This document shows, piece by piece, positions 2,379-53,270 of a stretch of 57,810 nt of DNA. Positions within the stretch are counted from its first letter, which is position 1, and every line of letters starts with the position of its first letter. The stretch is taken from positions 1 to 57,810 of the IMG/VR virus record IMGVR_UViG_3300007735_000761; one strand, given 5' to 3'. Source of the DNA: a virus. Under the pieces are notes generated by a model. That model saw nothing but the letters and a program-made list of their open reading frames with translations, was not told the origin of the DNA and did no database searches. The position numbers and the translations under genes were made by a program.

Positions 2379-3026
2379 ATGCCTGCGTCAATGACATTTA
2401 CCAGTTTGCAGTCGGACATCCGCAACTACCTTGAGCGCGGCGGAGCGACCGACCCTATTGTCTATGAGCAGATTCCCCGGCTGATTACGCTGGCGGAGCG
2501 CCGGATTGCGCGTGAACTGAAGATTCAGGGTTTCCAGCGGGTGGTCAATACGACCATGCAGTCTGGGGTGGCGGTGTATCCGAAACCCGACCGGTGGCGC
2601 GACACAATTAGCGTCAACATCGGCACCGGGGCTAACAACAACACCCACACGCCGGTCTTTGCTAGGTCTTATGAATATATCCGCCAGTACTGGCCGGACG
2701 AGACCCAGACTGATCAGCCGCTTTTTTACGCTGACTACAATTACAACTTCTGGATCTTCGGACCGACTCCGGATGCCGATTATCCGATGGAAGTGCTCTA
2801 TTACGAACTGCCGCCGCTTTTGGACGAAGTGACGCAGACTAACTGGCTGTCTGAGTACGCGCCCAATCTGCTCCTGTACGGGTCGCTGGTTGAGGCTACG
2901 CCGTTTGTGAAGGATGACCAGCGGGTGCAATTGTGGCAGTCCTACTATGACCGCTCGTTGGCCGCGCTTAATGGCGAGGATCTCCAGAAGATCGTTGACC
3001 GGTCTACGAATCGCCGGGAGGCTTAA
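2379..3026 (+). CDS. Head-tail adaptor-like virion protein (215 aa)
   Basis: Starts MPASMTFTSLQSDIRNYLER and contains TDPIVYEQIPRLITLAERRIARELKIQG, the helical beginning of a phage adaptor-like family (gp6/gp7 or SU10 adaptor type), followed by a beta-rich region with many Tyr/Trp. Such proteins form the ring under the portal in short-tailed phages. The ribosome site TTAGGAG is seven bases from the ATG. It is the first gene of a run of tail and internal virion genes. A second, longer adaptor-like protein is encoded at 49322, so this one may be a head-closure or nozzle component. Assignment rests on recognition of the N-terminal pattern and context. Confidence 0.65.
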   Translation: MPASMTFTSLQSDIRNYLERGGATDPIVYEQIPRLITLAERRIARELKIQGFQRVVNTTMQSGVAVYPKPDRWRDTISVNIGTGANNNTHTPVFARSYEYIRQYWPDETQTDQPLFYADYNYNFWIFGPTPDADYPMEVLYYELPPLLDEVTQTNWLSEYAPNLLLYGSLVEATPFVKDDQRVQLWQSYYDRSLAALNGEDLQKIVDRSTNRREA

Positions 3027-3029
3027 ACC

Positions 3030-4223
3030 GTGACTACTTATACGAATACTTTCGGCGGGACGAACATCTACCCTAGCGATGTGTCTTATCGCTATGTCTC
3101 GCTGACAATTGATCAGGCGCTAAGCTGGCCGCTTGAGACGGCTCCGACGAATGATGTGGTCGCGTCCATCATGGACGTTAACGCCACGACGACGAGCCTT
3201 GTCATCACGATGCCGGATGCGACTGAAGCGTCTACTGGTCAGACGGTGCTCTTTAACAATGTTGGCTCCAACACGTTTACGGTTAAGACCAGCACTGGCA
3301 CTCAGATCTGTGCGCCGACTTCGGGCAGCACTTTTCAGATTTACCTGACCAGTAACAGCACGGCTTCGGGCACTTGGCGCTCGTTTCAATACGGCGCGTC
3401 TGCTTCTGCGAACAATGCAGCCAGTCTGGCGGGTCTTGGCCTTAAAGCGATTGCAACGACGCTCAACCAGTCGATTGAAGTATCTTCTTTTAGCAGTAAC
3501 TACACGGCGGGTGTCAGCGACCGATCCAAGGCATTTATCTGGACGGGTGGTGCAGGAACGCTTGCTCTGACCGCAGCGCCGACGCTTGGCAACGACTGGT
3601 TTGTGCAGATTCGCAATGGCGGTACGGGCGATCTGACGATTGATCCCAACAGTTCCGAGAACATCAACGGCGCGGCTACCCTTACGCTTTCGCCCGGAGA
3701 CTCCTGCATCATCGTAACGGATGGCGTGCAGTTCTGGACGATTGGCTTTGGTCAGTCTGCGGTGTACGCCTTCAGCGTGCTTCAGATTGATATTTCGGGC
3801 AGCGGTAATTACACGCTTACCATATCTGAGCTTAATAAAACGGCTTATATTTTTATTGGCACCCTGACCGGAAACCGCGACATCATTGTTCCAACTACTG
3901 TTCAACAGTATTGGGTCAGCAATCAAACGACGGGTTCTTATACTCTTGGCATCAAGACGGCTGCGCAATCTCCGGCGACAACCGTAGCCCAAGGCGCACG
4001 CGCCATCCTGTACTGTGATGGCACTAACGTAGTGGACGCGGATACGGCAACGATTGCCATTCCGGTGACCGTAGCTCAGGGCGGTACGGGAGCAACTACG
4101 GCTTCGGGCGCTAGAGCTAATCTTGGCGCTACGGCAGTAGGCGATGCGGTCTTTACTGCGGCCAGCACTACGGCTGCGCAGATTGCACTTGGCCTTGATC
4201 CGATTCAGGGCGGCACGTACTAA
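3030..4223 (+). CDS. Fibre or tail-associated structural protein
   Basis: A 397-residue Thr/Ser/Gly-rich protein of beta character. Near the C-terminus it has VAQGGTGATTASGARANLGA, the tail-fibre repeat motif found in many phage fibres, and it ends DPIQGGTY. The same ending type (GGTY) occurs in the fibre protein encoded at 53282. The start is a GTG at 3030, four bases after the adaptor stop; no in-frame ATG lies nearby. It lies between the adaptor and the hub-like protein, so it may be a fibre attached at the tail base. Confidence 0.7.
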   Translation: MTTYTNTFGGTNIYPSDVSYRYVSLTIDQALSWPLETAPTNDVVASIMDVNATTTSLVITMPDATEASTGQTVLFNNVGSNTFTVKTSTGTQICAPTSGSTFQIYLTSNSTASGTWRSFQYGASASANNAASLAGLGLKAIATTLNQSIEVSSFSSNYTAGVSDRSKAFIWTGGAGTLALTAAPTLGNDWFVQIRNGGTGDLTIDPNSSENINGAATLTLSPGDSCIIVTDGVQFWTIGFGQSAVYAFSVLQIDISGSGNYTLTISELNKTAYIFIGTLTGNRDIIVPTTVQQYWVSNQTTGSYTLGIKTAAQSPATTVAQGARAILYCDGTNVVDADTATIAIPVTVAQGGTGATTASGARANLGATAVGDAVFTAASTTAAQIALGLDPIQGGTY

Positions 4224-5833
4224 TGCCTTTACAGCCGATCATCATTCGTCCGCAACCCGGTATCAAGCGGGACGGCACGAAGTTTGAGGGCAACTTCTAC
4301 GTTGACGGACAATGGGTCCGTTTTCAGCGTGGGCTCCCTCGAAAGATAGGCGGCTTTCGTGCGCTTCAAGATCGGCTGGACGGCATTGCGCGTGGCATGC
4401 ACGTTCACAATCATAATGGATATACCTATGTCCATATCGGCACGCAGGACGGTGTATTTCGTTTCCGCTTGAATCAAAACGGTTTGAGCAGCATTGTCAC
4501 GAATCGTACTAATCCTGCCTACGTCAGCAACAGCAATGCCAACTGGATGTTTGATGTGGCGTATAACACCACAACGAGCCAGAATGAAATCTTGGCGCAT
4601 GTCGCTTCTGACATTGAAGACATCTCCTCTGATGCCAACGGCGCTCTGTATCGCGGGTACGACAACGGCACGACTACGCTGGATCTGGTGTCAGCGGTCA
4701 CGGTCTCTGGCGGTATCGTTGCCTTAGCGCCGTATGTCTTTGCGTATGGCTCGGATGGCTTTGTGCAGTGGAGTCGCGCGGGATATACGGATGACTGGTC
4801 TGGCGGCGATGCCGGATCTGCTCGGGTTACGAGCCAGAAGATCGTCAAGGGACTACCGCTTCGTGCGGGTGCTGGCAATGCACCGTCTGGTCTTTTCTGG
4901 TCGCTGGATTCCGTAGTTCGCGCTACGTATGTGGGCGGCGCTGCCGTCTTTAACTTCGACACCATTACCTCGCAGTCAAGCATTCTCTCTGGGAAGAGTG
5001 TGATTGAGTACGACGGTTTGTACTTCTGGTGCGGCGTTGACCGCTTCTTGATGTTTAACGGTGTTGTACGCGAAGTACCCAATCAGCTTAATCTGAACTG
5101 GTTCTACGACAATCTGAACTACGCGCAGCGGCAGAAAGTCTTTGCGTTTAAAGTGCCGCGCTGGGGCGAGATTTGGTGGTGCTACCCGCGTGGCAGTGCG
5201 ACCGAATGCACTCATGCGGTGATCTACAACGTGCGCGAAGAAACGTGGTACGACACGGAGCTTCCAAATGGTGGACGCTCTGCGGGTATGTATGCGCAGG
5301 TCTTTAACTCGCCGCTTGTAATTGGCGTCATTGATACAGAACTGACTCAGTATCGCGGCGTACAAAACACCGAGCTGCGCATTACGGAAGATGGCAATCC
5401 TCGCATCATCAACGACCCCAAGGGCTACGTGGTGTGGCAGCACGAGTACGGCACCAACGAGATCAACGGCGATCAGGTTCGACCGGTGCAGTCGTACTTT
5501 GAGACGGCAGACATGTCGCTGATTGCTTCCGAGAACCCGCAGAACATGGCGATCCGAGTGGAATATCTGGAGCCGGACTTTGTGCAGGCAGGCGATATGA
5601 CCGTTCAAGTTACCGGTCGCGCTAATGCCAAGTCAGCCGAAGTCACTAGCGATCCGCAGACTATTTACGCCACGCCCACCGAGAAGCAGCAGCAGTTGGT
5701 GTACTTCCGCGAGATTCGTCGCGAGTTGCGCTTCCGGTTTGAAAGCAACACCCTGAATGGTAATTACCAGATGGGTCAGGTCATTGCGCACATTGAACCG
5801 GCGACCGGTACGATCTTGGGAGAAAACCCATGA
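4223..5833 (+). CDS. Tail hub / head-closure protein, P22 gp10-like in context
   Basis: A 536-residue soluble, beta-rich protein with repeated aromatic blades (for example GMHVHNHNGYTYVHIGTQDG, YVFAYGSDGFVQWSRAGY, YDGLYFWCGVDRFLMFNG). It resembles the phage stabilisation/tail-accessory proteins of the P22 gp10 type that close the portal channel. The ATG overlaps the previous stop (TAATG). The next gene is coupled by ATGA. I could not identify catalytic residues. An alternative reading is a tail nozzle protein of the T7 gp12 type. Confidence 0.65.
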   Translation: MPLQPIIIRPQPGIKRDGTKFEGNFYVDGQWVRFQRGLPRKIGGFRALQDRLDGIARGMHVHNHNGYTYVHIGTQDGVFRFRLNQNGLSSIVTNRTNPAYVSNSNANWMFDVAYNTTTSQNEILAHVASDIEDISSDANGALYRGYDNGTTTLDLVSAVTVSGGIVALAPYVFAYGSDGFVQWSRAGYTDDWSGGDAGSARVTSQKIVKGLPLRAGAGNAPSGLFWSLDSVVRATYVGGAAVFNFDTITSQSSILSGKSVIEYDGLYFWCGVDRFLMFNGVVREVPNQLNLNWFYDNLNYAQRQKVFAFKVPRWGEIWWCYPRGSATECTHAVIYNVREETWYDTELPNGGRSAGMYAQVFNSPLVIGVIDTELTQYRGVQNTELRITEDGNPRIINDPKGYVVWQHEYGTNEINGDQVRPVQSYFETADMSLIASENPQNMAIRVEYLEPDFVQAGDMTVQVTGRANAKSAEVTSDPQTIYATPTEKQQQLVYFREIRRELRFRFESNTLNGNYQMGQVIAHIEPATGTILGENP

Positions 5834-6073: not shown

Positions 6074-8710
6074 ATGCCTAGCTACTACACTTATGGTGAG
6101 ATGCCGGACCCGGAAGAAGCCGTTTATGGCGTCGGTGGGCTGGATTCGTATTACAACGAAATGCCTATTCCGGCAGGTGCTGGGTTTGCTTCTCCGTTTG
6201 CAGACGAAGGGCGTGAAGGCGTTATGCCAGTGGGTGCTGACACCCCAATTAACGAAGAGCCTATTTATAGCGGCGGAATATCTGATCGAGAAACCATCAT
6301 GCCGACCGGCGAGGAGGAGCGCCTAACGCAGTCCTCTCCTGCGGCAACGACGGAAATGCCTGCAGCTTCTTATTTTGTTCCGGGGCTAACGACTTCAGTA
6401 ACTCCCACTGGCAGCACGCTTGAAGCTGGTCAGAAGGCAATGGCGTTGGCTTCGCTTGTTGACCCGTCTGCTCTTAAAGCCATGAACTTCCAAGTGGGAG
6501 ATGCGGCTTTTGGGGGTGGTGCTGGCGGATCTCCAATGACGCTTCAGTACTATCGAAACATAGCACCGGATACCGTTGGCGGTCAGGGTTCTTTCTACGA
6601 AGAGGGAGCCTTGGAGGCTGCTAAGGCAAACGCCGCTGATCCCACTCAAGGATTGTTTAAGTCTGGCTTTGAAGCTTTGGCAGGACAGCCCGGAATTCAA
6701 GAGGCTATTCAAGCAAAGAGTCAGCGCGATTTTGATGCAATTGCCAAGGTTGAATCTGACTATGACGTAATGAAGCCGCTGAGTGATTTGCTCAAGGCAA
6801 ACAAATTTAAAGAAGCTTTTGATTACGCCAAAGACAAGGGTGTTGAAGATAAGTTGATGCAAAGTAACTGGCTTGCTCAGTTGCGTCAGCCGTTTACTCC
6901 GGAAGAAATGAAAGACTTCTTTAAGTCTATGCCTCCGGGGTTTGCTGGAAGCAAGTTTGATTTTGCTCCAGAGATGGGAACGACTAGCGGGGCTGATTAC
7001 GGTTATCCAGATCCGCAGTCGGCGTATCAGCGGAAAGAAGACACGACGATCAAAGACGTTGTTAGATTTGGTCTTGATGTCATGCTTGCTGCTGCGGGCG
7101 TTCCGCCTATTCAGTCAGGGCTTACCAAGGCTGCATATACGCTTGCCGAAACCGGCGGCAATGTTGAAGCCGCTCTTAAAGCAGGCGTAGCCGCTGCGGC
7201 TGGGGCAAAGGTCGGTGAGTTTCTGCGTGCACCGGGACTTTCTGAAGTTACCCCAACGGGAGCTGTAGCAGGAACTACTGGCGCAGCAGCTCGGGCAGCA
7301 ACGGAGGCTGCAAAGCAAGGCGTAGCCAGCGGGCTTTCTGGCGGCGCTTTGCAAGAGATTGTGGTTCAGGCCGCAAGAGCAGCGGCTCCGGGTCTTGCTG
7401 AAACGGCGGTTAGAACGCTTGCCTCTAGTGCTTTGACCGAGGCCGTTAAGCCATCTGTGGCTGAAACTCCCAAGGTTGCGGAACCCGTCAAGACAGATCA
7501 GGTTGCTCGTGTAACTGAACCTTCTGGTCTTGAAGAAGTTGTTGTTTCAGGAAAGCGTTATTTTCAGCCAAGCCTTAAATCTGCTTTAGCCAGCGCCGCA
7601 ACGAGTGCAGGCACTCAGGACATTTTGTCTGAAAGACAAATTAAAGAAGCGCAAGAGGCTGAGCAAAGAGCTGCGGAAGAAGCGCAGAAGCCTGAAGATT
7701 TGGAAGAAGTCAAAGTGACGGCTAAAAGGCCAGCGTTGCTTGACCCTCTTGATCTGTTAAGAACTGGAACCGTTCCTGATTTTAGTAAAGAGTTGATGCA
7801 AAAAGGTTTGTACGATAAACCTATTTTTGAAGATGTTCCTATTAAAGATATTCCAAAAGAAAAATTAGAGGAAATTGTTGTAAAAGGGACAGCTCCCGTA
7901 AAGGGCGGTCTTACTGTTGGTGATGTTGCCGCAGGACTTGGTAGCGCTGCCGCTGCAAATGCTTTGTTAACTCAAGGCTATACGCAGCCTAATGTTGACC
8001 CGTTAACTGGCGAGCCTAAGCAAGTTCCAAAAACTCAACAAGAACTAGATTCCATTCAAAAGGCTCTTGCAACCGGCGCTGCTATTCCGGGCACTGGAGG
8101 CGCGTTAGATACAATTAAGAGTTTGCTTGAAAAATACGGCACACTTGAAAACGCATTAAAAATACTTGGCGCTATTGGTGCTGCGGGTGCAAAAACTCCA
8201 ACCGTTTCAACTGGTACGGGAGTTGGCGTTGGGGGTATGGGCGGCGCGTTGCCCAAGTACACCTATACCCGGCAGCAGTTGCGCCCGGACATTGACTACT
8301 ACACCTACGGCACCCGACCGGAAGCCAAGTTCTTTGAGCAGGGCTTGCAGTTGGAAAAGCCGGTTCAACCACCTCCGCCAGCGGACGTTAATCCGCCGGA
8401 TGAGAACAAGCCTATGGCTTATGGCGGCTTGACCGGCTACTCCCATGGCGGCAGTCACAGTTCGCGATACGTAGACGGCCCCGGCTCCGGTCGAGATGAC
8501 AAGATCCCGGCACTGCTCAGCGATGGGGAGTACGTGATTGACGCTGAGACCTTGGCGCTGTTGGGAGACGGCTCGACCAAGGAGGGGGCGAAGAGACTTG
8601 ACGAGTTCCGTGCTAATATCCGCAGGCACAAGGGTCAGGCCCTCTCGCGTGGCCAAATTAGTCCGAACGCTAAGTCGCCCGAAAAGTACATGGGCGGAGG
8701 GTTGACCTAA
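6074..8710 (+). CDS. Large internal virion protein with TonB-receptor-like repeats
   Basis: An 878-residue, Ala/Gly/Glu-rich protein. Four copies of a short motif stand at residues 426 (LQEIVVQAAR), 486 (LEEVVVSGKR), 543 (LEEVKVTAKR) and 598 (LEEIVVKGTA), spaced 55-60 residues apart. They resemble the E-[IV]-V-V-T-[GA]-x-[RK] sequence near the N-terminus of TonB-dependent receptors. The C-terminus has M781AYGG and the block DKIPALLSDGEYVIDAETL, which I recognise from many phage virion proteins. It is followed by three more large virion proteins, so it is probably ejected with or ahead of the DNA. The exact role is not known. Confidence 0.7.
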   Translation: MPSYYTYGEMPDPEEAVYGVGGLDSYYNEMPIPAGAGFASPFADEGREGVMPVGADTPINEEPIYSGGISDRETIMPTGEEERLTQSSPAATTEMPAASYFVPGLTTSVTPTGSTLEAGQKAMALASLVDPSALKAMNFQVGDAAFGGGAGGSPMTLQYYRNIAPDTVGGQGSFYEEGALEAAKANAADPTQGLFKSGFEALAGQPGIQEAIQAKSQRDFDAIAKVESDYDVMKPLSDLLKANKFKEAFDYAKDKGVEDKLMQSNWLAQLRQPFTPEEMKDFFKSMPPGFAGSKFDFAPEMGTTSGADYGYPDPQSAYQRKEDTTIKDVVRFGLDVMLAAAGVPPIQSGLTKAAYTLAETGGNVEAALKAGVAAAAGAKVGEFLRAPGLSEVTPTGAVAGTTGAAARAATEAAKQGVASGLSGGALQEIVVQAARAAAPGLAETAVRTLASSALTEAVKPSVAETPKVAEPVKTDQVARVTEPSGLEEVVVSGKRYFQPSLKSALASAATSAGTQDILSERQIKEAQEAEQRAAEEAQKPEDLEEVKVTAKRPALLDPLDLLRTGTVPDFSKELMQKGLYDKPIFEDVPIKDIPKEKLEEIVVKGTAPVKGGLTVGDVAAGLGSAAAANALLTQGYTQPNVDPLTGEPKQVPKTQQELDSIQKALATGAAIPGTGGALDTIKSLLEKYGTLENALKILGAIGAAGAKTPTVSTGTGVGVGGMGGALPKYTYTRQQLRPDIDYYTYGTRPEAKFFEQGLQLEKPVQPPPPADVNPPDENKPMAYGGLTGYSHGGSHSSRYVDGPGSGRDDKIPALLSDGEYVIDAETLALLGDGSTKEGAKRLDEFRANIRRHKGQALSRGQISPNAKSPEKYMGGGLT

Positions 8711-9780
8711 TGAGCGCAGTTGACTTTCTGTTTGAGGGCAGCGCCCCAACACCCGGAACCACGGCCAGCACTTCTCAGGTGCAGTTGCCCGAGTGGTATA
8801 CCCAGTACACGACCGACATGCTGGGCCGTGCTCAGGCAGCGGCTAACCTTCCGTATGCGCAGTACACCGGGCCGCGTATCGCCGGGTTCACCCCGACCGA
8901 GCAGGCTGGCTTTGAGGCCACCAAGCAGGCTGCAACCGCTTATCAGCCGTTTTTAGGGCAGGCGGGAACGACCCTTGGACAAGCAGGCGGGGTGAGTGCA
9001 CTCGGGGTTGCGCAGCCTTTCTTATCTGCTGCCAGCCAGACATTCCCCGGAGCCGTTGGGGCATACATGAGCCCCTACACCCAAAACGTGGTCAATCAGA
9101 TCGCGCAGCAGGGGGTCCGGCAGTTGCAGGAAAAGTATCTCCCGGCGGTGGGCGAAGAGTTTATCAAGGCTGGCCAGTTTGGCCCCGGCCCCGGTTCGAC
9201 CCGCATGGGCGAGTTTGGTGCGCGGGCGCTGCGTGACGTTCAAGAGGCGGTGCTCGCAGAACAGGCCAAGGCTCTTGAGTCGGGCTACAAAACGGCTGCG
9301 GATATCTACGGCACCGATGTGGGCCGGATGGCAACGCTTGCAGGCACGGCGGGTCAGTTGGGGCTTGGCGAAGCCAAAACGCTTCAGGATCTTGCGTCTC
9401 GTTATGGCGAGATGGCGGGCGAAGCTCAGCGTTTGGGCTTGACCGGTGCCGGTGCGATTGGCGGCGTAGGCGAGAAAGAACGCGCTATGCAGCAGGCCAA
9501 TCTTGAGCTGGCGTACAAGGACTTCTTGCGTCAGGAAGCGTATCCGAAAGAGCAGATCAAGTTCTTGAGCGATGTACTTCAAGGGGTTCGTCTGCCGGAA
9601 ACAAAGATTGAACAGACCACAACTACGCCCGCGCAGCCGGGAGGTCCTTCGGCAATTGAGAAGGCTATTACTGGCGCGACTGGGGTTGCCAACATTATTG
9701 ATCTTATTAAGAAGTACCTCCCTAGTGGGTCAAGCGGGGCTGGCAGCGTCGGTACGTCATCAACGACAGACGTTCTTTAA
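8710..9780 (+). CDS. Internal virion / DNA-transfer-like protein (356 aa)
   Basis: A mostly helical, Ala/Gln/Gly-rich protein with LPEWYTQYTTDMLGRAQAAA near the N-terminus and PYAQYTGPRIAGFTPTEQAG just after, a pattern I recognise from a widespread phage structural family. The middle (about residues 150-260) is long amphipathic helix. The C-terminus is Thr/Ser/Gly rich. It overlaps the previous stop (TAATG). By position it belongs with the neighbouring proteins thought to form the ejection apparatus of short-tailed phages. Confidence 0.7.
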   Translation: MSAVDFLFEGSAPTPGTTASTSQVQLPEWYTQYTTDMLGRAQAAANLPYAQYTGPRIAGFTPTEQAGFEATKQAATAYQPFLGQAGTTLGQAGGVSALGVAQPFLSAASQTFPGAVGAYMSPYTQNVVNQIAQQGVRQLQEKYLPAVGEEFIKAGQFGPGPGSTRMGEFGARALRDVQEAVLAEQAKALESGYKTAADIYGTDVGRMATLAGTAGQLGLGEAKTLQDLASRYGEMAGEAQRLGLTGAGAIGGVGEKERAMQQANLELAYKDFLRQEAYPKEQIKFLSDVLQGVRLPETKIEQTTTTPAQPGGPSAIEKAITGATGVANIIDLIKKYLPSGSSGAGSVGTSSTTDVL

Positions 9781-9812: not shown

Positions 9813-11162
9813 ATGGATGACGAAAATCAAGAGCTTGGTCTTTTTGGTCTGAGTTCATTAGGCGCTGAAGACGAAGAAGGCGAAGAGACCGCCAGCATTA
9901 CGGCTGCGGCTGAGGGAGCGTTGCCCTATGCCGACAAACTTCGCTCGGAGTACGAAAAAACCATTGGCGAGTACCGTACCTCGACTGAAGATGTTTTGAG
10001 TCAGATTACAGCAGCGCGTAAGCGTCTTGAAATGCAGCCCACTAGCAAGACTCGTGGCGAATACGTGCGTGGCCTTGCTGAAAAGTTAACTGCTCCTAAA
10101 GAATCTACTGACCCGCGCTTTTACGAGCGGCGCAATCTTTATACTTTCCTGCGCGATGTGGGTCAGTACGGTGCCGAGCAGTCAGAAGCCGAAAAGCAAG
10201 CCAAACTTAAACGTCAAGAAGACTTGGCTAAGTTGGATGAGTTAAAGGCCAAGTACCGTCAGTCAAGTGCGCTGGGCTTGCTCAAGGAGTTGGAGCCTGC
10301 TTATCGGGCTGCGATGAAACCGGCTACCACTCGCGACTCAAGGACAACGGATCAAAAGAATGCCGATTCCATGAATATGAGTCTTCGTGACTATTACGAA
10401 TGGAAGAATAAACAGCAGAAAGAGGGTAAAGACCCAAATACCGCTCTTGATCAATTCATTCGCGCAAGAGGTATTCTTGCGGACCCGAAATCTTCCCCGG
10501 CTGATAGAGCCGCCGCTTTGGATTACATCCAAAAGAACACGCCTGCTGACATTCGTAAAGGCAAAATGGCTGAGGATAAAAATTCCAAGGGCTATCTTGA
10601 GAGAATTACCAATCAAGTTACCTTTACGATTCCTGACATTGATAGCGCCATCAAACAGGTTGATGAAGGTGGCATATTCGCGGCTGGTAATTTGTCGAAG
10701 TGGCTGGAAGGCAAACCATTTATTGGTCAGAAAGCGACAAACCTTGAGCGCACGTTGGAATCTATCCGCTCCAAGCTGGGCTTTGACAAACTTGAAGAGT
10801 TGAAGAAACTTTCTCCGTATGGAGCAAGCGGACTGGGCGCTGTGTCCAACGCGGAGCAAAGATTGTTGCAGTCTGTTAAAGGCTCTGTCGAAAGAGATCA
10901 AAGCCCTGAAAACCTGCGCGCTAATCTTGTTCGTATTAAGGACTTTTACGAAAACGAAGTCTTTAACATCTTGTCGCGTGAGACTGGCATTCAGGGAATT
11001 ACCGGCATAGAAGAAGCGATGAAGGAACTGGATGCAATTAGGGAGGGTACTGCTCCTTCTGCTGCTCCAGCCGGTGCCTCTGCTATGCCCACAATTGACC
11101 CTGATGCTATTCGTAAAGAGCGAGAGCGGCGCAATGCACTGCGCAAAGCAGGAGGCGGCTAA
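9813..11162 (+). CDS. Internal virion protein (449 aa)
   Basis: A soluble, charged, largely helical protein. An acidic N-terminus (DENQELGLF...EDEEGEE) is followed by coiled-coil-like stretches (residues about 35-165) and a Lys/Glu-rich C-terminus. No catalytic motif was seen. A GGAG ribosome site precedes the ATG, and the stop overlaps the next start (TAATG at 11160-11164). Its place between two other internal virion genes supports a structural or ejection role; the exact function is unknown. Confidence 0.65.
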   Translation: MDDENQELGLFGLSSLGAEDEEGEETASITAAAEGALPYADKLRSEYEKTIGEYRTSTEDVLSQITAARKRLEMQPTSKTRGEYVRGLAEKLTAPKESTDPRFYERRNLYTFLRDVGQYGAEQSEAEKQAKLKRQEDLAKLDELKAKYRQSSALGLLKELEPAYRAAMKPATTRDSRTTDQKNADSMNMSLRDYYEWKNKQQKEGKDPNTALDQFIRARGILADPKSSPADRAAALDYIQKNTPADIRKGKMAEDKNSKGYLERITNQVTFTIPDIDSAIKQVDEGGIFAAGNLSKWLEGKPFIGQKATNLERTLESIRSKLGFDKLEELKKLSPYGASGLGAVSNAEQRLLQSVKGSVERDQSPENLRANLVRIKDFYENEVFNILSRETGIQGITGIEEAMKELDAIREGTAPSAAPAGASAMPTIDPDAIRKERERRNALRKAGGG

Positions 11163-14100
11163 TGGCTATTGATCTGAGCAAGCTGTCAGACGAAGACCTT
11201 GATGCTCTTGAAAAAGGAGACCTGACGAGCCTTTCAGACGAAGCTTTAGACATGCTTGAAGGTAGAGAGCGCCCCGCTGCTGCTCCTACTCCCGCTCCTG
11301 CTGCGCCCTCTGCTCCAGTAGAGCCATTCCGTAAAGGACCGCAGGGGCCGCGTCGTTATCCCGGTCAGAATAAAGATCAGCGTAGGCTTCCCTTGCTTCC
11401 AAGGGATGTGCGCATTCCGACTGACGTTAGCCCTGCCCGTGGAGTAAGCGGTCTCTTGGGTATTCCCGGTGGCGCTGTTCGCATGGTTCGCAGTGTTGCC
11501 GAATTGGGCGGCGAAACTGAAACTTCTCGTGCGCTTAAAGAACTTGAGGCTTCTATTGCCGCTCGCGCCCCTGAAAAAGAAGTTTATGAATTTGGTCGGG
11601 TTGTTCCAGAGATTCTTCCCTTTGGCGTTACGGCAGGAGTTATTTCTAAACTACCTGTTGCAAGTCGACTTGGTATGAGTGCGCTTCAGACAGCCGGACA
11701 AGCAGGCACAGCGTATGCCATTACCCCAGAGAATCGCGAAGAAGCTGCGTTAATTACTGGTCTTCTTGGCGCTGCGGGTGAAGCCGCTCAACCGGTTTAT
11801 CAGTTGGGCAAGCGCGGAGTCACCAAGATTCGTCAGTTGCTTAGCACGACAGGCCCTGTAGGCGCTACGCCTGCTGAAGAGGCTGCAATTCGTATTGCCC
11901 GTGAAAAAGCTCCGGGCATGGAGGCTACTGAAGCAGAACTTGCTGCTGCGCGCGAATCTGAACGTCTTAAAAGAGAAGAAGCTGAACGGCTTAAAGCCAA
12001 GTATCTTCAGAACGAAGCAAATCGCGCTGCTCGGAAGGGCGAATTAGTCAAAGCCAAAACGACTGCTGAAGAAGCCAAAGCGCGTGTCGAGGCTGAAACC
12101 AGCGCAGCGGTTAAGGATGCCAAGGCAAAGCAAGACGCTATTGCCGATCAAATCCGCGACCGTGGCAAACAACTTACGGAAGAAGCAAAGGCTACGGATA
12201 AGGTGCTTGAAGAGACCAACATCCGAGAGGCTGCGGAAGATGCCAAGGGAACCCTTGAAGATCGCGCTTCAGGATTCAAAACGCTTTCTCAGAATTTAAA
12301 GCAAGAAGCCGACGCCGCGAAAGCCACTGCCGTTGAGCCCTTGCCGGTGCGGGATAAAAAATCTCGTGCGGTTGATTTCCGTCAGTTGATTTTGTCCAAA
12401 CGTGAGAACCTTAAAGAAGCTCGTGATAAGTCAATTGGTCGAGTAGTAGACCCCAAGACTGGTAAGACCGAGCCGTTGCCGTTCTTAAAGGCTGCTTTGG
12501 ATAAAGAGGATGCCGGTCAAACGATTAGTGCTGCCCCTGCATTTCGCAATCTTGTCAATTTTGTGCGTGACAGGGCTGAAAACATTAGCCGTTATGGTGA
12601 TGATGTTCTTTTGCCTCACGCAAAGTTTTTAAAAGAACTTGAGCCTATAAGGGAAACGATTGATGCAAGCGGCCAGAAAGTAAAAGAAGTTGTTCCCATA
12701 AAATTTGAAAAGTTGTGGGAATTGCGTCGTCGTATTGAGAAAGCTCGTACCGGAGAAACCGCTACGGGGTATGAAGTTCTTGAGAAAGAAAAGCGTGAAG
12801 ATTTGCTTAAAGAAATTGATAACGCTTTGGATGAGTTTGGCGTTGGCTACAAAGACTTCAATAAGAAGTATTCTGAAGCTTCGCGCCCGCTGGATGATTT
12901 TGAGTTTGGAATTGGCGAAAAGGCGACAGAGACTCGTAAGTTTAGTCGCAATACGTTTATTGAAACTCCTGAAGTTGTTTTGGATACGGCGCTTTCAAAG
13001 CCCAGTCGTTCTTCTGCGGAGCGGCTAAAGCCCTTGTTTGAAGACGCTGATCAAGACAAACTTGAAAACATCATCTTTGAGTCGTTAGTTGAAAAGGCAG
13101 GCAATACTGCCAAGGGCTACGATGATGTACTCAAGAAGTACGGAGAGTTTCTTGAGGTTTTCCCAAATGCCAAGAATGCTTTCCGGGCAGAAGCAGATCG
13201 CGTAAAGACCGCGTTTGGAGAAGCGGAGAAGACTGCTGCATTTAAAGAACGCTGGGCAAAGCGCATGGAAGATCGCGCCGATAAGGCAGAAAAAGCGGTC
13301 AAGTCCATTAGCGGAATGCAGGAGCGCGTCAAGACTTCAATGACCTCGCCTTTGAAGGAAGGGGCATTGGACGACATTGGTGCGTTTGTTAGAGCCAACC
13401 CAAGCATGCGCCCCAAGGTGGGAGCCGCTCTGCAAGACGTTTTAAATTCCATGGATGATCGGGTGCTCATCAGGGCGCTTGAGGTTCCTGAGCGTCAGGC
13501 CGCGTTTATGCGCGCTGGAATGGATCGCTCACAAATAGATGATGTTCTGGCCGGAGCGCGTCGTCGCTCAGATGAGCGTGTTGCCAAACTTGCTGAAGTG
13601 AAGGAAATGGGCCGCAGCTTCAGAGAGGCCAAGAAGGAAACTGAGGCCGCTAAGAGCGCAGCCGCCGAAAGCAAGAGGGCCGCTACCGAAGAGGTTAAAA
13701 AGGCTGGGGCTGAAATTGGAAAATTAAGCGCAGAAGGTCGCGCTGAAGAAATTGCCAAGAAACAGGCTCAGGCAGAGTTTCAGGCTGCTCGTGGTCTGCG
13801 CGTTAGCGCACAGCAAAAGCGTCAGGCTTTGAGTGAACTTACTCCCGACATGCGCGATGCCATCAATATCGAAGCCGAAAAGATTCCGCTTAACACAACC
13901 GAAGGGCTAGCTCGTGCTACGACTTTGGCAACTGTTTTAGGTGGAGTTGGCAGCGTTGTTGCAGGTTCTGTCTTGGGCGGAATGCTTACCGCTGGAGTTG
14001 CTGCGGCAGGAGCTACTGGACGAAGAATTTTAATTAAAAAGCAGCAAAAACAAATTGCTGATGAAATTAAAAATGTTGTTTCTGAAATCCTGAAAGACGA

Positions 14101-14965
14101 AACAGGTGGCGTAGTTTCTGCTATTGAGGGGAAAATCAATCGCGCCAATGACGTTGCCGCAGCCCAGCGGATTGCTAATAAAGCCCTCTCTCGTTTGGGC
14201 TACAAGCCGGGTGTCGGCGCGGTAACTTCAAGCGTAATTTACAACGCTTACGCTCAAGAGCCTTCGCCAGAGGTAGAAAAGACCGAACCTGTCGCGGAAG
14301 AAGCTCCGGCAAGCGAACCGGTTGCCGAAGAAGCGCCTGCAAAAGAACCCGTTGCAGAAGAGCCTGCTCCTGTAGCAGAAGCAAAGTCTTATACCTTTGA
14401 AAGTTTGACTCCTGATCAAGTCAAAAGAATGGGCGAGTATTTTGACAGTTTGGGCATGAACAAGGATTTCTTGCTCAACGCTCGTACCTTTAATGCTACT
14501 CCGTTTGAAAAGCGCAAAAGGCTTTTTGACTTGATGGAAACTCGTAATATGGCCGATGGTGGCAGCGTAGATGCTGAGCGTCAGCGTATTGAAGCTGAAA
14601 TAAGGAAAACCCCTTGGTTCAGCGAATTTGTTCGCCAATACGGCGAAGAACCAGATTTGTCTGAAAGGGCCAATTACGATTACATGACTGCTTGGAAGGC
14701 CGGTGTACGGCCACGAATCAACCCGAATGATAAGCGGTATCATTGGGACTCAAAAACGCCTGACGGCAGAATGCTTAAAAAGCCAGATCATCCGACGATT
14801 TGGAAGACGTATTTTATGGATGCAACTGGCATCGACCCGGACACCATTGGCATTAAGAATGAGCAGGAAGCTCAGGCTTACATCAATGCCCAGCGCGTCA
14901 AAAAAGCGCGTGGTGGGTACACCCCAGCAGAAGAGGTCTTGCTAAGACGCTACTCAAGCAGGTAG
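11162..14965 (+). CDS. Very large internal virion / ejection protein (1267 aa)
   Basis: This is the largest protein in the window. Residues about 260-400 and 800-890 are dense Ala/Glu/Lys coiled coil. One strongly hydrophobic, Gly/Ala-rich stretch near residues 920-950 (LGGVGSVVAGSVLGGMLTAG) could insert in a membrane. Near residue 1045 is a Pro/Ala/Glu linker with three EPVAEE units. After M1130ADGG comes a conserved module with YDYMTAWKAGVRP and DGRMLKKPDHPTIWK, which I have seen at the ends of other phage virion proteins. The architecture fits a protein that helps build the trans-envelope channel for DNA entry, like T7 gp16 in role but without a visible lytic transglycosylase motif. Confidence 0.65.
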   Translation: MAIDLSKLSDEDLDALEKGDLTSLSDEALDMLEGRERPAAAPTPAPAAPSAPVEPFRKGPQGPRRYPGQNKDQRRLPLLPRDVRIPTDVSPARGVSGLLGIPGGAVRMVRSVAELGGETETSRALKELEASIAARAPEKEVYEFGRVVPEILPFGVTAGVISKLPVASRLGMSALQTAGQAGTAYAITPENREEAALITGLLGAAGEAAQPVYQLGKRGVTKIRQLLSTTGPVGATPAEEAAIRIAREKAPGMEATEAELAAARESERLKREEAERLKAKYLQNEANRAARKGELVKAKTTAEEAKARVEAETSAAVKDAKAKQDAIADQIRDRGKQLTEEAKATDKVLEETNIREAAEDAKGTLEDRASGFKTLSQNLKQEADAAKATAVEPLPVRDKKSRAVDFRQLILSKRENLKEARDKSIGRVVDPKTGKTEPLPFLKAALDKEDAGQTISAAPAFRNLVNFVRDRAENISRYGDDVLLPHAKFLKELEPIRETIDASGQKVKEVVPIKFEKLWELRRRIEKARTGETATGYEVLEKEKREDLLKEIDNALDEFGVGYKDFNKKYSEASRPLDDFEFGIGEKATETRKFSRNTFIETPEVVLDTALSKPSRSSAERLKPLFEDADQDKLENIIFESLVEKAGNTAKGYDDVLKKYGEFLEVFPNAKNAFRAEADRVKTAFGEAEKTAAFKERWAKRMEDRADKAEKAVKSISGMQERVKTSMTSPLKEGALDDIGAFVRANPSMRPKVGAALQDVLNSMDDRVLIRALEVPERQAAFMRAGMDRSQIDDVLAGARRRSDERVAKLAEVKEMGRSFREAKKETEAAKSAAAESKRAATEEVKKAGAEIGKLSAEGRAEEIAKKQAQAEFQAARGLRVSAQQKRQALSELTPDMRDAINIEAEKIPLNTTEGLARATTLATVLGGVGSVVAGSVLGGMLTAGVAAAGATGRRILIKKQQKQIADEIKNVVSEILKDETGGVVSAIEGKINRANDVAAAQRIANKALSRLGYKPGVGAVTSSVIYNAYAQEPSPEVEKTEPVAEEAPASEPVAEEAPAKEPVAEEPAPVAEAKSYTFESLTPDQVKRMGEYFDSLGMNKDFLLNARTFNATPFEKRKRLFDLMETRNMADGGSVDAERQRIEAEIRKTPWFSEFVRQYGEEPDLSERANYDYMTAWKAGVRPRINPNDKRYHWDSKTPDGRMLKKPDHPTIWKTYFMDATGIDPDTIGIKNEQEAQAYINAQRVKKARGGYTPAEEVLLRRYSSR

Positions 14966-50317: not shown

Positions 50318-50628
50318 GTTTGTTTCTTGACACTCGTGGTCAGCCTTATGCAGCGGTTGCAATTTGTGATCGTTGCAGTCGGAAATTTCCGTTGGCTGAG
50401 TTGATGCCGGATCGAAACTATCCGGGGCTACGAGTATGCCGAGAAGATTTGGATGATTTGGACCCGTATCGTTTGCCTGCGCGTCAGACAGAGCGAATTA
50501 CTCTGCCGTTTGTGCGCCCGGACGTTCCGTTGTCTTCACAGCCGTATGGTGTAATTAGTGAAGACGGCAACACGTTTTTGGTTAACGAGCAAGATGACGA
50601 TTACCTTGAGCCGGAGCAGCCCCTGTAA
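50314..50628 (+). CDS. Small conserved protein with Cys knuckle
   Basis: A 104-residue protein: MSLFLDTRGQPYAAVAICDR, CSRKFPLAELMPDRNYPGLR, VCREDLDDLDPYRLPARQ. The CDRC...C pattern, found in many phages after adaptor genes, looks like a small zinc-binding fold. It overlaps both neighbours (ATGA and TAATG). It is probably structural. Confidence 0.78.
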   Translation: MSLFLDTRGQPYAAVAICDRCSRKFPLAELMPDRNYPGLRVCREDLDDLDPYRLPARQTERITLPFVRPDVPLSSQPYGVISEDGNTFLVNEQDDDYLEPEQPL

Positions 50629-53270
50629 TGGCCAACGTACCTAGTAATTTAATTCCAAGCAGAATCACGCAGCTTCCCGAAGCTCCGGTTGCGGACCCGG
50701 CTGGCTATTTCCCGATTGTTATTTCGGGCACGACCTATAAGGTCCAGTTCAGTCAGATTCAGGGCAACGTCGAGGTCCCGGCTTCGCGACAAATTATTGC
50801 GGGCACGGGGCTGACGGGCGGCGGAACGCTTTCGCAAAACATCACGATTGCAGTCGCCAACGGCGGGATCGGCAACGATCAGCTTGATACAACGGGCGTG
50901 GCTGCGGGATCGTATGGCACCGGTAGCGACATTCCTGTAGTTACAGTTAACTCCAAGGGCCGCGTCACGAGCGTTAGCACAACGCCGGTAGTTGTGAGCG
51001 GATATGTATCCGACACCATTCAGGTTGTAGCGGGTACAGGACTTGCGGGTGGCGGCACGCTGTCGCAAAACCGCACGCTGTCTATTGATTACGCGGCTAC
51101 GACGCCATCTTCTTTGGGCACTGCGTCGGCAGGATCGGCAGCGACTCCTGCTCGGATAGATCACGTTCACCCAGCGCTTAATTTAAGCGATAGCACTCAA
51201 ACGAGTGGCGTGTTGCCGATGGGCCGTGGTGGTACTGGCGCAAATTTGTCGCCGGTTGCGGGTGCGGTAGTCCTAACCAATGGCAGCAACTTTGAGCTGA
51301 GCAATGTCGGTAACGCGGGACAGGTATTTATCTCAAACGGTGCATCTGCTCCGGATTGGGGTAATGCTTCGTCTTTGACGGTTGATGCCGCAAGCAGATT
51401 GCTAGGTGGCGCTGCTAATCGGGTTGTTTATCAGTCTGCTACTAATCAAACCAGTTTTGTTATTGCGCCGAGCGTGTCAGATACCTTCCTTAAATGGAAT
51501 GGAACGTCTTTTGAGTGGGCTGTTACTCCGGGCGCTGGCACGGTTACAAGCGTTGATGGATCTGGAGGCTCAACGGGCCTTACGCTAAGCGGTGGTCCTA
51601 TTACGTTGGCTGGCACGCTAACGCTTGGTGGAACACTGGCAATTGGTGCAGGAGGCACGGGTCTTTCGGCTGCGGCAACTAATGGGCAGTTGCTGATTGG
51701 CAATGGAAATGGTTACACGCTCGCGACTCTTACAGCGGGCACGGCAATTTCTGTCACGAATGCGACTGGCAGCATTACGCTGGCCAATACGGCTCCGGAT
51801 CAAACGGTTGTTATAACCGGCAGCACCGCTATTAGCATTGCTGGGACGTATCCAAGCTTTACGGTAACCAATACTGCTCCCGATCAGACCGTTGTTATAA
51901 GTGGCAGCACAGCCATTAGCATTTCGGGTACGTACCCAAGCTTTACGGTAACCAATACTGCTCCTGATCAAACGGTCACGGTAACGAGCGGCACTAACAT
52001 CAGTGTCAGCGGCACGTATCCAAGCTTTACTGTTTCTTCGCCCAATACCGTTGTAGGCCCTGCCGGAGCCACGAGTGGCGCGATTGCGCTTTATGACGGC
52101 GGCACTGGCAAGTTGATCAAGAACTCGGCCATTACGATCAATGCGTCTGGCGTCATCAGCAACGTCAATACGCCTAATGCGGCAACCGACGCGGCTAACA
52201 AGCAATACGTAGACGATCTGGTTAGTTCCGGCATTCACATTCATACGCCGGTTGTGCTGGCAACTTCGCCGGGATCTTCGCGTACCGACACGTACAACAA
52301 CGGTACGGCGGGTGTTAGCGCCACGCTGACTTCAGTGGCTAACGGCACGCTGGTCATCGACGGCACGGTCGCTTCTGCAACGATCCGCGTGCTGATCCAA
52401 GACTGCTCTAACCCGATTGGCAACGGCATATATGTCGTCACCAACGCGGGTAGCGCCAGTGCTCAGTACGTAATGACGCGATCTTCGGACGCGGATACGG
52501 CGGGTCAGCAGTCTACTCAGTCGCTTGACGACGGAAGCTACTTCTTCACGACCGGCGGTACGAGCAACAAGGGTGCCTCTTGGGTTAATACCAATACGGG
52601 CAACATTAGCTTTGGCTCGACGGCGATTACGTTCTCGCAGTTCAGCGCCTCGCAGGTGTACTCGGCGGGAAATGGACTTAGCCTGACTAATACGGTGTTC
52701 TCGCTTGAGACCCCGGTTAGCGTGCTAAATGGTGGCACGGGACGTTCTTCGGCTCCGACCAATGGTCAGTTGCTGATTGGTAATGGTGCGGGGTACACCC
52801 TTGCGGGGCTGACGGCAGGCACCGGAGTTTCGGTCACCAACGCCACTGGGTCGATTACGCTTGCGAATACCGCACCGGATCAAACGGTCATTATTACGGG
52901 TAGCGGAATTGTCAGCGTTACCGGCACTTATCCTAGCTTTACGGTAGGGGCGGTCGAAACATATAGCGGTACGGTCACCAGCGTTGATGGTTCCAGCACA
53001 GTCAGCGGATTCACGCTTTCTGGCGGACCCATTACGTCTTCGGGAAGATTGACTCTTGCCGGAACACTTGGGATTAGCTCGGGTGGTACCGGACTTAGTG
53101 GGACCCCCACAAACGGACAACTGTTAATCGGTAACGGGTCTGGATATACCCTTGCCACTCTGACGCAAGGATCTGGCGTGACGATTACCTCTGGAACCGG
53201 TAGCATTACAATTGCTGCCACAGGTGGTGGCGGGGGTAGTAACGCATACGCTTGGTTCATTGCGGCTTAG
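50628..53270 (+). CDS. Large tail-fibre protein with internal repeats
   Basis: An 880-residue protein. The N-terminus SRITQLPEAPVADPAGYFPI is a virion-attachment segment related to that of the 47405 product. The body is a chain of beta repeats: GTGLTGGGTLSQNITIAV-type units, modules beginning NGQLLIGNG (three copies), and a tandem of three 28-residue units ending GTYPSFTV with an exact 84-bp period from 51792. The middle (about 530-690) is a distinct domain with FSQFSASQVYSAGNGL. The C-terminus is Gly-rich and ends WFIAA. It is the main host-range fibre candidate. Confidence 0.85.
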   Translation: MANVPSNLIPSRITQLPEAPVADPAGYFPIVISGTTYKVQFSQIQGNVEVPASRQIIAGTGLTGGGTLSQNITIAVANGGIGNDQLDTTGVAAGSYGTGSDIPVVTVNSKGRVTSVSTTPVVVSGYVSDTIQVVAGTGLAGGGTLSQNRTLSIDYAATTPSSLGTASAGSAATPARIDHVHPALNLSDSTQTSGVLPMGRGGTGANLSPVAGAVVLTNGSNFELSNVGNAGQVFISNGASAPDWGNASSLTVDAASRLLGGAANRVVYQSATNQTSFVIAPSVSDTFLKWNGTSFEWAVTPGAGTVTSVDGSGGSTGLTLSGGPITLAGTLTLGGTLAIGAGGTGLSAAATNGQLLIGNGNGYTLATLTAGTAISVTNATGSITLANTAPDQTVVITGSTAISIAGTYPSFTVTNTAPDQTVVISGSTAISISGTYPSFTVTNTAPDQTVTVTSGTNISVSGTYPSFTVSSPNTVVGPAGATSGAIALYDGGTGKLIKNSAITINASGVISNVNTPNAATDAANKQYVDDLVSSGIHIHTPVVLATSPGSSRTDTYNNGTAGVSATLTSVANGTLVIDGTVASATIRVLIQDCSNPIGNGIYVVTNAGSASAQYVMTRSSDADTAGQQSTQSLDDGSYFFTTGGTSNKGASWVNTNTGNISFGSTAITFSQFSASQVYSAGNGLSLTNTVFSLETPVSVLNGGTGRSSAPTNGQLLIGNGAGYTLAGLTAGTGVSVTNATGSITLANTAPDQTVIITGSGIVSVTGTYPSFTVGAVETYSGTVTSVDGSSTVSGFTLSGGPITSSGRLTLAGTLGISSGGTGLSGTPTNGQLLIGNGSGYTLATLTQGSGVTITSGTGSITIAATGGGGGSNAYAWFIAA

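Follow-up and report, generated by a model that had tools for sequence, protein, structure and literature searches.

Ton-box-like repeats in a probable ejection protein of a short-tailed phage and a similar motif in a siphophage tape measure family

TonB-dependent bacteriocins use a TonB box of their own for passage through the bacterial envelope. In the group B colicins and S-type pyocins, this disordered box lets a foreign protein parasitise TonB (PMC10994204, PMC4964976, PMC12905483), and TonB-dependent receptors carry their Ton box in a flexible segment beside the part of the protein that crosses or opens the membrane path. Here we describe a probable virion protein of a phage, P0001, with four motifs that agree with the receptor Ton box position by position (L-[ED]-E-[IV]-V-V-T-[GA]-x-[KR]) and appear to be placed in a similar way. 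Unlike a receptor, P0001 carries the motif in repeated and internal form, and it has neither the signal peptide nor the Plug domain nor the 22-strand barrel of a TonB-dependent receptor. Bacteriocins kill, and their one or few boxes lie in a translocation region at the N-terminus, whereas the P0001 family has up to six strict copies in mid-protein and would serve DNA delivery.

Among phage systems, the podophage ejection proteins (T7 gp14, gp15 and gp16; P22 gp7, gp16 and gp20) are similar in that they cluster after adaptor and stabilization-type proteins and share with P0001 a predicted internal virion role (PMC8954989), and no Ton boxes are described for the T7 and P22 proteins in the papers that we found. 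Siphophage tape measure proteins are likewise ejected, channel-forming and dependent on host envelope proteins, as in HK97, where the tape measure protein works together with an inner-membrane protein of the host (Cumby et al. 2015, cited in PMC10240207), but their known host partners are proteins other than TonB. For phages T1 and phi80, TonB dependence has been described through the receptor FhuA (PMC11658791). Our search of the open literature, with subscription papers outside its scope, turned up no description of a Ton box in the ejection or tape measure proteins of phages. Bacteriocins are a known case of Ton-box parasitism; what is new here is the phage carrier and the repeated form.

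The window that we analysed spans all 57,810 bases of an IMG/VR virus record. P0001 is encoded by an open reading frame at 6074-8710 in the following cluster of genes.

2379-3026, plus strand: SU10-type adaptor protein of a short-tailed phage (Pfam SU10_adaptor, E 2.9e-28)
3030-4223: tail-fibre-like protein (PHROG search)
4223-5833, plus strand: 536-aa virion protein (phrog_3287, E 7.5e-33; tblastn 49.7% identity over 98% to Caulobacter phages)
6074-8710, plus strand: P0001, 878 aa, probable ejection (internal virion) protein with Ton-box-like repeats (no Pfam family; gene order as in Caulobacter phages)
8710-9780, plus strand: 356-aa probable ejection protein, next after P0001 (synteny with Caulobacter phages GB2A and RLK)
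9813-11162, plus strand: 449-aa probable ejection protein (phrog_2534, "released from the phage upon host infection", E 3.5e-5)
11162-14965, plus strand: 1267-aa probable ejection protein, positional counterpart of the GB2A "lytic tail protein" (synteny)

The matches of the 536-aa protein include annotated "phage stabilization proteins", and by this protein the cluster can be assigned to a short-tailed phage with a P22-like plan. The 356-aa and 1267-aa proteins matched no family in PHROG or Pfam, and the genes stand in the same order in GB2A, RLK and their kin. Among relatives whose host is known, the nearest infect Caulobacter, at an identity of just 50-66%; bin names of relatives derived from metagenome-assembled genomes were not used as hosts. 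As is typical of podophage ejection proteins, P0001 clusters with short-tail proteins and with other probable ejection proteins, and the region reads as the ejection-protein cluster of a short-tailed phage, with a presumed virion role for P0001. By the same comparison P0001 is not a tape measure protein, the coiled-coil ruler of a long-tailed phage, because its matches to PHROG tape measure families are confined to C-terminal residues 797-830 and its neighbours are short-tail proteins. The ejection cluster of the circular phage L206 (MW202545, 16074-19235) encodes two extremely cysteine-rich proteins, with runs like CSCCCSCCCSCC, and such cysteine richness is very unusual for virion proteins.

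A first-pass annotation of this DNA had placed four motifs at residues 426, 486, 543 and 598 of the 878-residue protein, and the translation of the open reading frame contains them at exactly these positions. The features of P0001 that matter here are as follows, with ranks and scores from a profile of receptor Ton boxes.

7349-7378, plus strand: motif copy 1, LQEIVVQAAR, residues 426-435 (rank 1, 17.6 bits)
7451-7993, plus strand: linker rich in Pro, Glu and Lys with copies 2-4, approximately residues 460-640, mostly disordered by pLDDT
7529-7558, plus strand: motif copy 2, LEEVVVSGKR, residues 486-495 (rank 2, 15.0 bits; predicted disordered linker)
7700-7729, plus strand: motif copy 3, LEEVKVTAKR, residues 543-552 (rank 3, 14.9 bits; predicted disordered linker)
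7865-7894, plus strand: motif copy 4, LEEIVVKGTA, residues 598-607 (rank 5, 13.8 bits; predicted disordered linker)
8468-8707, plus strand: conserved C-terminal segment, approximately residues 799-878, RYVDGPGSGRDDKIPALLSDGEYVIDAETLALLGDG... (anchor for the homologue search)

The general form of the motif is L-[ED]-E-[VI]-x-V-[T/x]-[GA]-x-[KR], and the codon choice differs among all four copies. The linker ends in a stretch rich in Ala and Gly at residues 615-633. The C-terminal segment, with the signature GxGRxDxIPAxLSDGEYV, occurs both in ejection proteins of podophages and in tape measure proteins, across widely differing phages that include actinobacterial ones.

The motifs are not a product of chance in P0001. 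Four sites of at least 13 bits were found in the protein, against a mean of 0.005 and never more than two in 20,000 shuffles of its sequence. Only 3 matches of at least 12 bits occurred in 386,262 residues of six-frame open reading frames of other viral contigs, and at that background rate four matches in 878 residues have a Poisson P of ~9e-11. An equal frequency of the motif in unrelated phage proteins had been named as a ground for dismissing the repeats, and the motif is far rarer there. Elsewhere in the window, an 880-aa tail-fibre-like protein (50628-53270) has two DQTV[IV]ITGS strands, at sites 51798 and 52878, which score 9-12 bits with the Ton-box profile and are probably fibre repeats.

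To compare the repeats with receptors, we scanned 96 alphaproteobacterial genomes for E[VIM]VVT[GA]x, with a partial restriction on the eighth codon. In one of them, G022, the pattern had 20 matches and its backward control 0. All 20 matches lie at the N-terminus of long open reading frames, right after the signal peptide, and an independent search for the Plug domain placed Plug matches just downstream of many of these sites. Across the receptor-rich alphaproteobacterial genomes scanned in six frames, matches to the motif pattern are the Ton boxes of TonB-dependent receptors. We then used profiles in both directions. Thirty receptors were selected by their Plug score alone, and with the profile derived from the phage proteins the Ton box outscored every other 11-mer of the protein in 26 of them. 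With the Ton-box profile, the four sites of P0001 ranked 1, 2, 3 and 5 among the 58,701 residues of the six-frame translation of the window. The columns of the two profiles correlate at 0.63 in register and at no more than 0.24 at any other offset, a figure to be read with the fact that the Ton-box profile comes partly from receptor segments picked with the phage profile and is thus not fully independent; the pattern scan is independent. Taken together, these comparisons argue strongly that the repeats fit receptor Ton boxes at the profile level in both directions, and the suggested resemblance to the TonB-contacting segment of the receptors is borne out.

The main rival to TonB as the partner of these motifs is another strand-binding envelope protein, such as TolA, a periplasmic chaperone or an outer-membrane protein, for which the motif would be a beta-strand peptide that anchors or folds the conduit. 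TonB and TolA both bind their partners by beta-strand augmentation (PMC12905483), the partner of TolA being TolB, and some divergent repeats in homologues, such as EVKVETERE and EVKVEAPAD, retain only the strand-forming half. A generic strand partner, however, needs neither the second half T-[GA]-x-[KR] nor the leading L-[ED]-E, and both match Ton boxes position by position. We regard this alternative as unlikely, yet as the strongest of those considered here.

We next turned to the predicted structure. Very low-confidence coil in an AlphaFold2 model is the usual sign of disorder. The model of P0001 consists of predicted helices and coil, with pLDDT below 50 at residues 460-519, 537-563 and 582-638. 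Copies 2-4 lie in coil with pLDDT of ~28-39 and are thus predicted to be in a flexible or disordered segment, as Ton boxes are. Copy 1 is not, since it falls in a confidently predicted helix (residues 424-437, pLDDT ~80), and it is the least certain of the four copies. The copies had been taken as four equivalents, which does not hold, copy 1 being predicted helical and copy 4 being without the basic residue of the motif.

The search for homologues of P0001 was anchored on the conserved C-terminal segment and made no use of the motif; the set consists of the best 80 of at least 592 loci. De novo motif discovery by expectation maximization in the linkers of 31 diverse homologues, run with no Ton-box prior and with non-overlap and masking, without which the search is drawn to Ala- and Pro-rich runs, gave LEEVVVTGTKP as its top motif, present in all 31. 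The linkers contain 133 sites of at least 14 bits, compared with 0.25 in shuffled linkers. The number of strict copies per homologue ranges from 0 to 6, the most permissive cut-off gives as many as 8 profile sites without overlap, and the distance between copies ranges from 36 to ~100 residues. In homologue L010, for example, the copies stand in tandem units of 36 residues, while those of P0001 stand 60, 57 and 55 residues apart. Since spacing and copy number vary freely among the homologues, the even spacing that the first-pass annotation had stressed is peculiar to P0001 and not a feature of the system; that annotation had held that loss of either motif or spacing in homologues would speak against the reading, and homologues have kept the first and not the second.

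Some homologues that the strict pattern scored as empty contain divergent repeats, for example DEVKVETERE, QEVKVEAPADKP and EEIKVSTEAD, of which the first two are like receptor Ton boxes in their first half only, and Caulobacter phage GB2A has the variants DEIVVTPSQP and DELVIKPP. The motif is absent only from distant homologues with short linkers (L211, L213, L215 and L216). From the divergent repeats and the motif-less distant homologues, we conclude that TonB cannot be a universal need of this protein family.

In 23 close homologue pairs, with 60-90% linker identity, synonymous change per codon was the same in the motif as in the linker (0.303 and 0.307), but nonsynonymous change was 0.154 in the motif versus 0.285 in the linker (Fisher P 2e-7, with pairs that are not independent of one another). 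In the L029/L053 pair, 97% of motif residues are kept versus 65% of linker residues. The difference is clear for close pairs only, the linkers of divergent pairs being unalignable. These substitution rates are strong evidence that the motif is under selection relative to its linker. Many homologue linkers are low-complexity stretches in which P, E, V and T abound, and one might suppose that Pro/Glu/Val-rich linkers simply yield such strings by chance or as a general property; the scarcity of sites in shuffled linkers and shuffled P0001 and the greater conservation at equal synonymous change make this explanation very improbable.

We gave the same low standing to the idea that the copies are prohead-protease sites, at which an internal protein would be cut after L-x-E during head maturation as in T4-like phages. 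Three of the four copies have LEE and one has LQE, and the glutamate at the third motif position is 92% conserved, but conservation continues for seven residues beyond the supposed cut. We rejected this candidate on the versions of the motif found in tape measure proteins (GGDIIVTARK, GEDIIVTAKK), which have no L and often have D in place of E.

These tape measure versions came from scans of viral contigs for EVVVTGxK and EIVVTGxR, which found the motif in many other proteins. Some of these, L355 and L363 among them, look like genuine receptors on viral contigs that include host DNA. When the 76 motif-bearing open reading frames outside the P0001 family were searched against PHROG, tape measure families appeared repeatedly; an internal virion protein family also came up, as did proteins of the baseplate or sheath. 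A control peptide of the same composition found 20 open reading frames. The PHROG families listed for these were for the most part replication enzymes, methyltransferases, head proteins and a baseplate hub, with none for tape measure proteins among them. Several other carriers may be mentioned in their own right. A 191-aa open reading frame of L117 encodes a secreted L,D-transpeptidase-like protein, a periplasmic enzyme with the Ton-box-like EELEEVVVTGVR shortly after its signal peptide. Small unrelated viral proteins in L357, L370, L371 and L373 begin with a short basic stretch (for example, MAKKTKRYEDGG) and continue at once with EIVVTGxR, which puts the motif at the N-terminus. In L087 and L298 (543-aa open reading frame), a head-morphogenesis-like protein has PEEVVVTGSK between its main part and a C-terminal domain that looks like enzymatic cargo.

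We collected one tape measure family by its conserved glycine-rich segment alone and scanned the proteins, of 1,000-1,700 aa, over their whole length. In 42 of 63 proteins, against 5.8 expected (P 1e-28), the best Ton-box match lay 15-130 residues ahead of the glycine-rich segment, and scrambled and reversed profiles placed it there in 5 proteins each. After exclusion of six seed lineages and a stricter removal of redundancy, the count was 36 of 55 lineages, with 5.0 expected (P 2e-24) and, over 300 column permutations of the profile, a mean of 4.9 and a maximum of 22. The profile of the podophage proteins gave 33 of the 55. In an alignment of 25 of these sequences, chosen to include motif carriers so that 36 of 55 is the unbiased figure, [DE/x]-I-[VI]-V-[TN/x]-[GA]-x-[RK] forms a conserved island in a gap-filled hypervariable linker. 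The model of L593 places the motif in coil (pLDDT ~39) between a helical rod and the glycine-rich helices. In the loci L573-L644, the single copy stands 15-130 aa upstream of a glycine-zipper-like segment. The motif is absent from 14 unrelated tape-measure-like proteins and from the tape measure proteins of T1 and phi80, which we scanned as positive controls. The tape measure segment had no tblastn match among isolate phages, and the tape measure profile had none in 289 alphaproteobacterial genomes.

Repeats in flexible linkers are common in assembly proteins. The motif might work inside the virion and resemble Ton boxes by coincidence; its strands would then dock onto a second virion protein, and the ejection proteins would be packed or put in order in this way. 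In keeping with such a role, P0001 is probably a virion component and some other carriers are baseplate or sheath proteins; against it, the same motif occurs in unrelated siphophage tape measure proteins without a counterpart of the podophage head proteins, and a coincidence across both halves of the motif is unlikely. We consider an in-virion role less likely than another envelope partner and doubtful on the whole. The presence of the same motif in an unrelated family of ejected proteins supports a role directed at the host. By these comparisons the motif has apparently evolved at least twice in tailed phages, and the tape measure island is possibly the more general phenomenon.

We therefore favour, with a probability of roughly 0.58, the reading that the repeats of P0001 are Ton-box mimics of an ejected protein that engage host TonB in the periplasm. 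TonB binding, ejection, periplasmic exposure and an energetic role are the parts of this reading that we infer. Judging from the gene cluster and its relatives, ejected P0001 would enter the periplasm within a trans-envelope conduit, where the flexible Pro/Glu-rich linker would display several Ton boxes to TonB. Given the profile identity, each of these may join the C-terminal domain of the host's TonB as an extra beta-strand, in the manner of a receptor Ton box. Powered by the proton motive force, TonB-ExbBD might then tether the conduit to the inner membrane or pull it, with several motif copies giving avidity or repeated capture, and captured P0001 would be brought towards the inner membrane, beside membrane-like segments of its own. 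Siphophage tape measure proteins, with one motif before a glycine-rich membrane-like segment, could use the same trick.

Binding of TonB could also serve another end, in which the ejected linker acts as a decoy that sequesters TonB and so closes receptors to later phages or starves the cell. Multiple copies would suit such titration, and phages do shut TonB receptors by other means, as with Llp of T5, which jams FhuA from the periplasm and leaves the Ton box untouched (PMC9586334). A decoy is nonetheless improbable, only slightly less so than chance or protease sites, as few ejected molecules per cell would face the whole TonB pool and the position of the tape measure motif beside membrane-like segments suggests a role in entry.

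More tentatively, and with odds that we put somewhat below even, Ton-box mimicry by ejected proteins may be a general and convergent means of entry for tailed phages that infect TonB-rich Gram-negative bacteria, in multi-copy form in podophages and, ahead of a glycine zipper, in single-copy form in siphophage tape measure proteins, by which TonB-ExbBD and the proton motive force help the conduit or the genome across the envelope. How phage proteins and DNA pass through the periplasm and the inner membrane, and what drives that passage, is a long-standing question. If the proposal is true, it would link DNA entry to a known force-generating machine, and it would explain a class of tonB-dependent infections without a TonB receptor as the binding site. 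A Ton-box mimic would also be a sequence handle that can be searched for in any phage genome.
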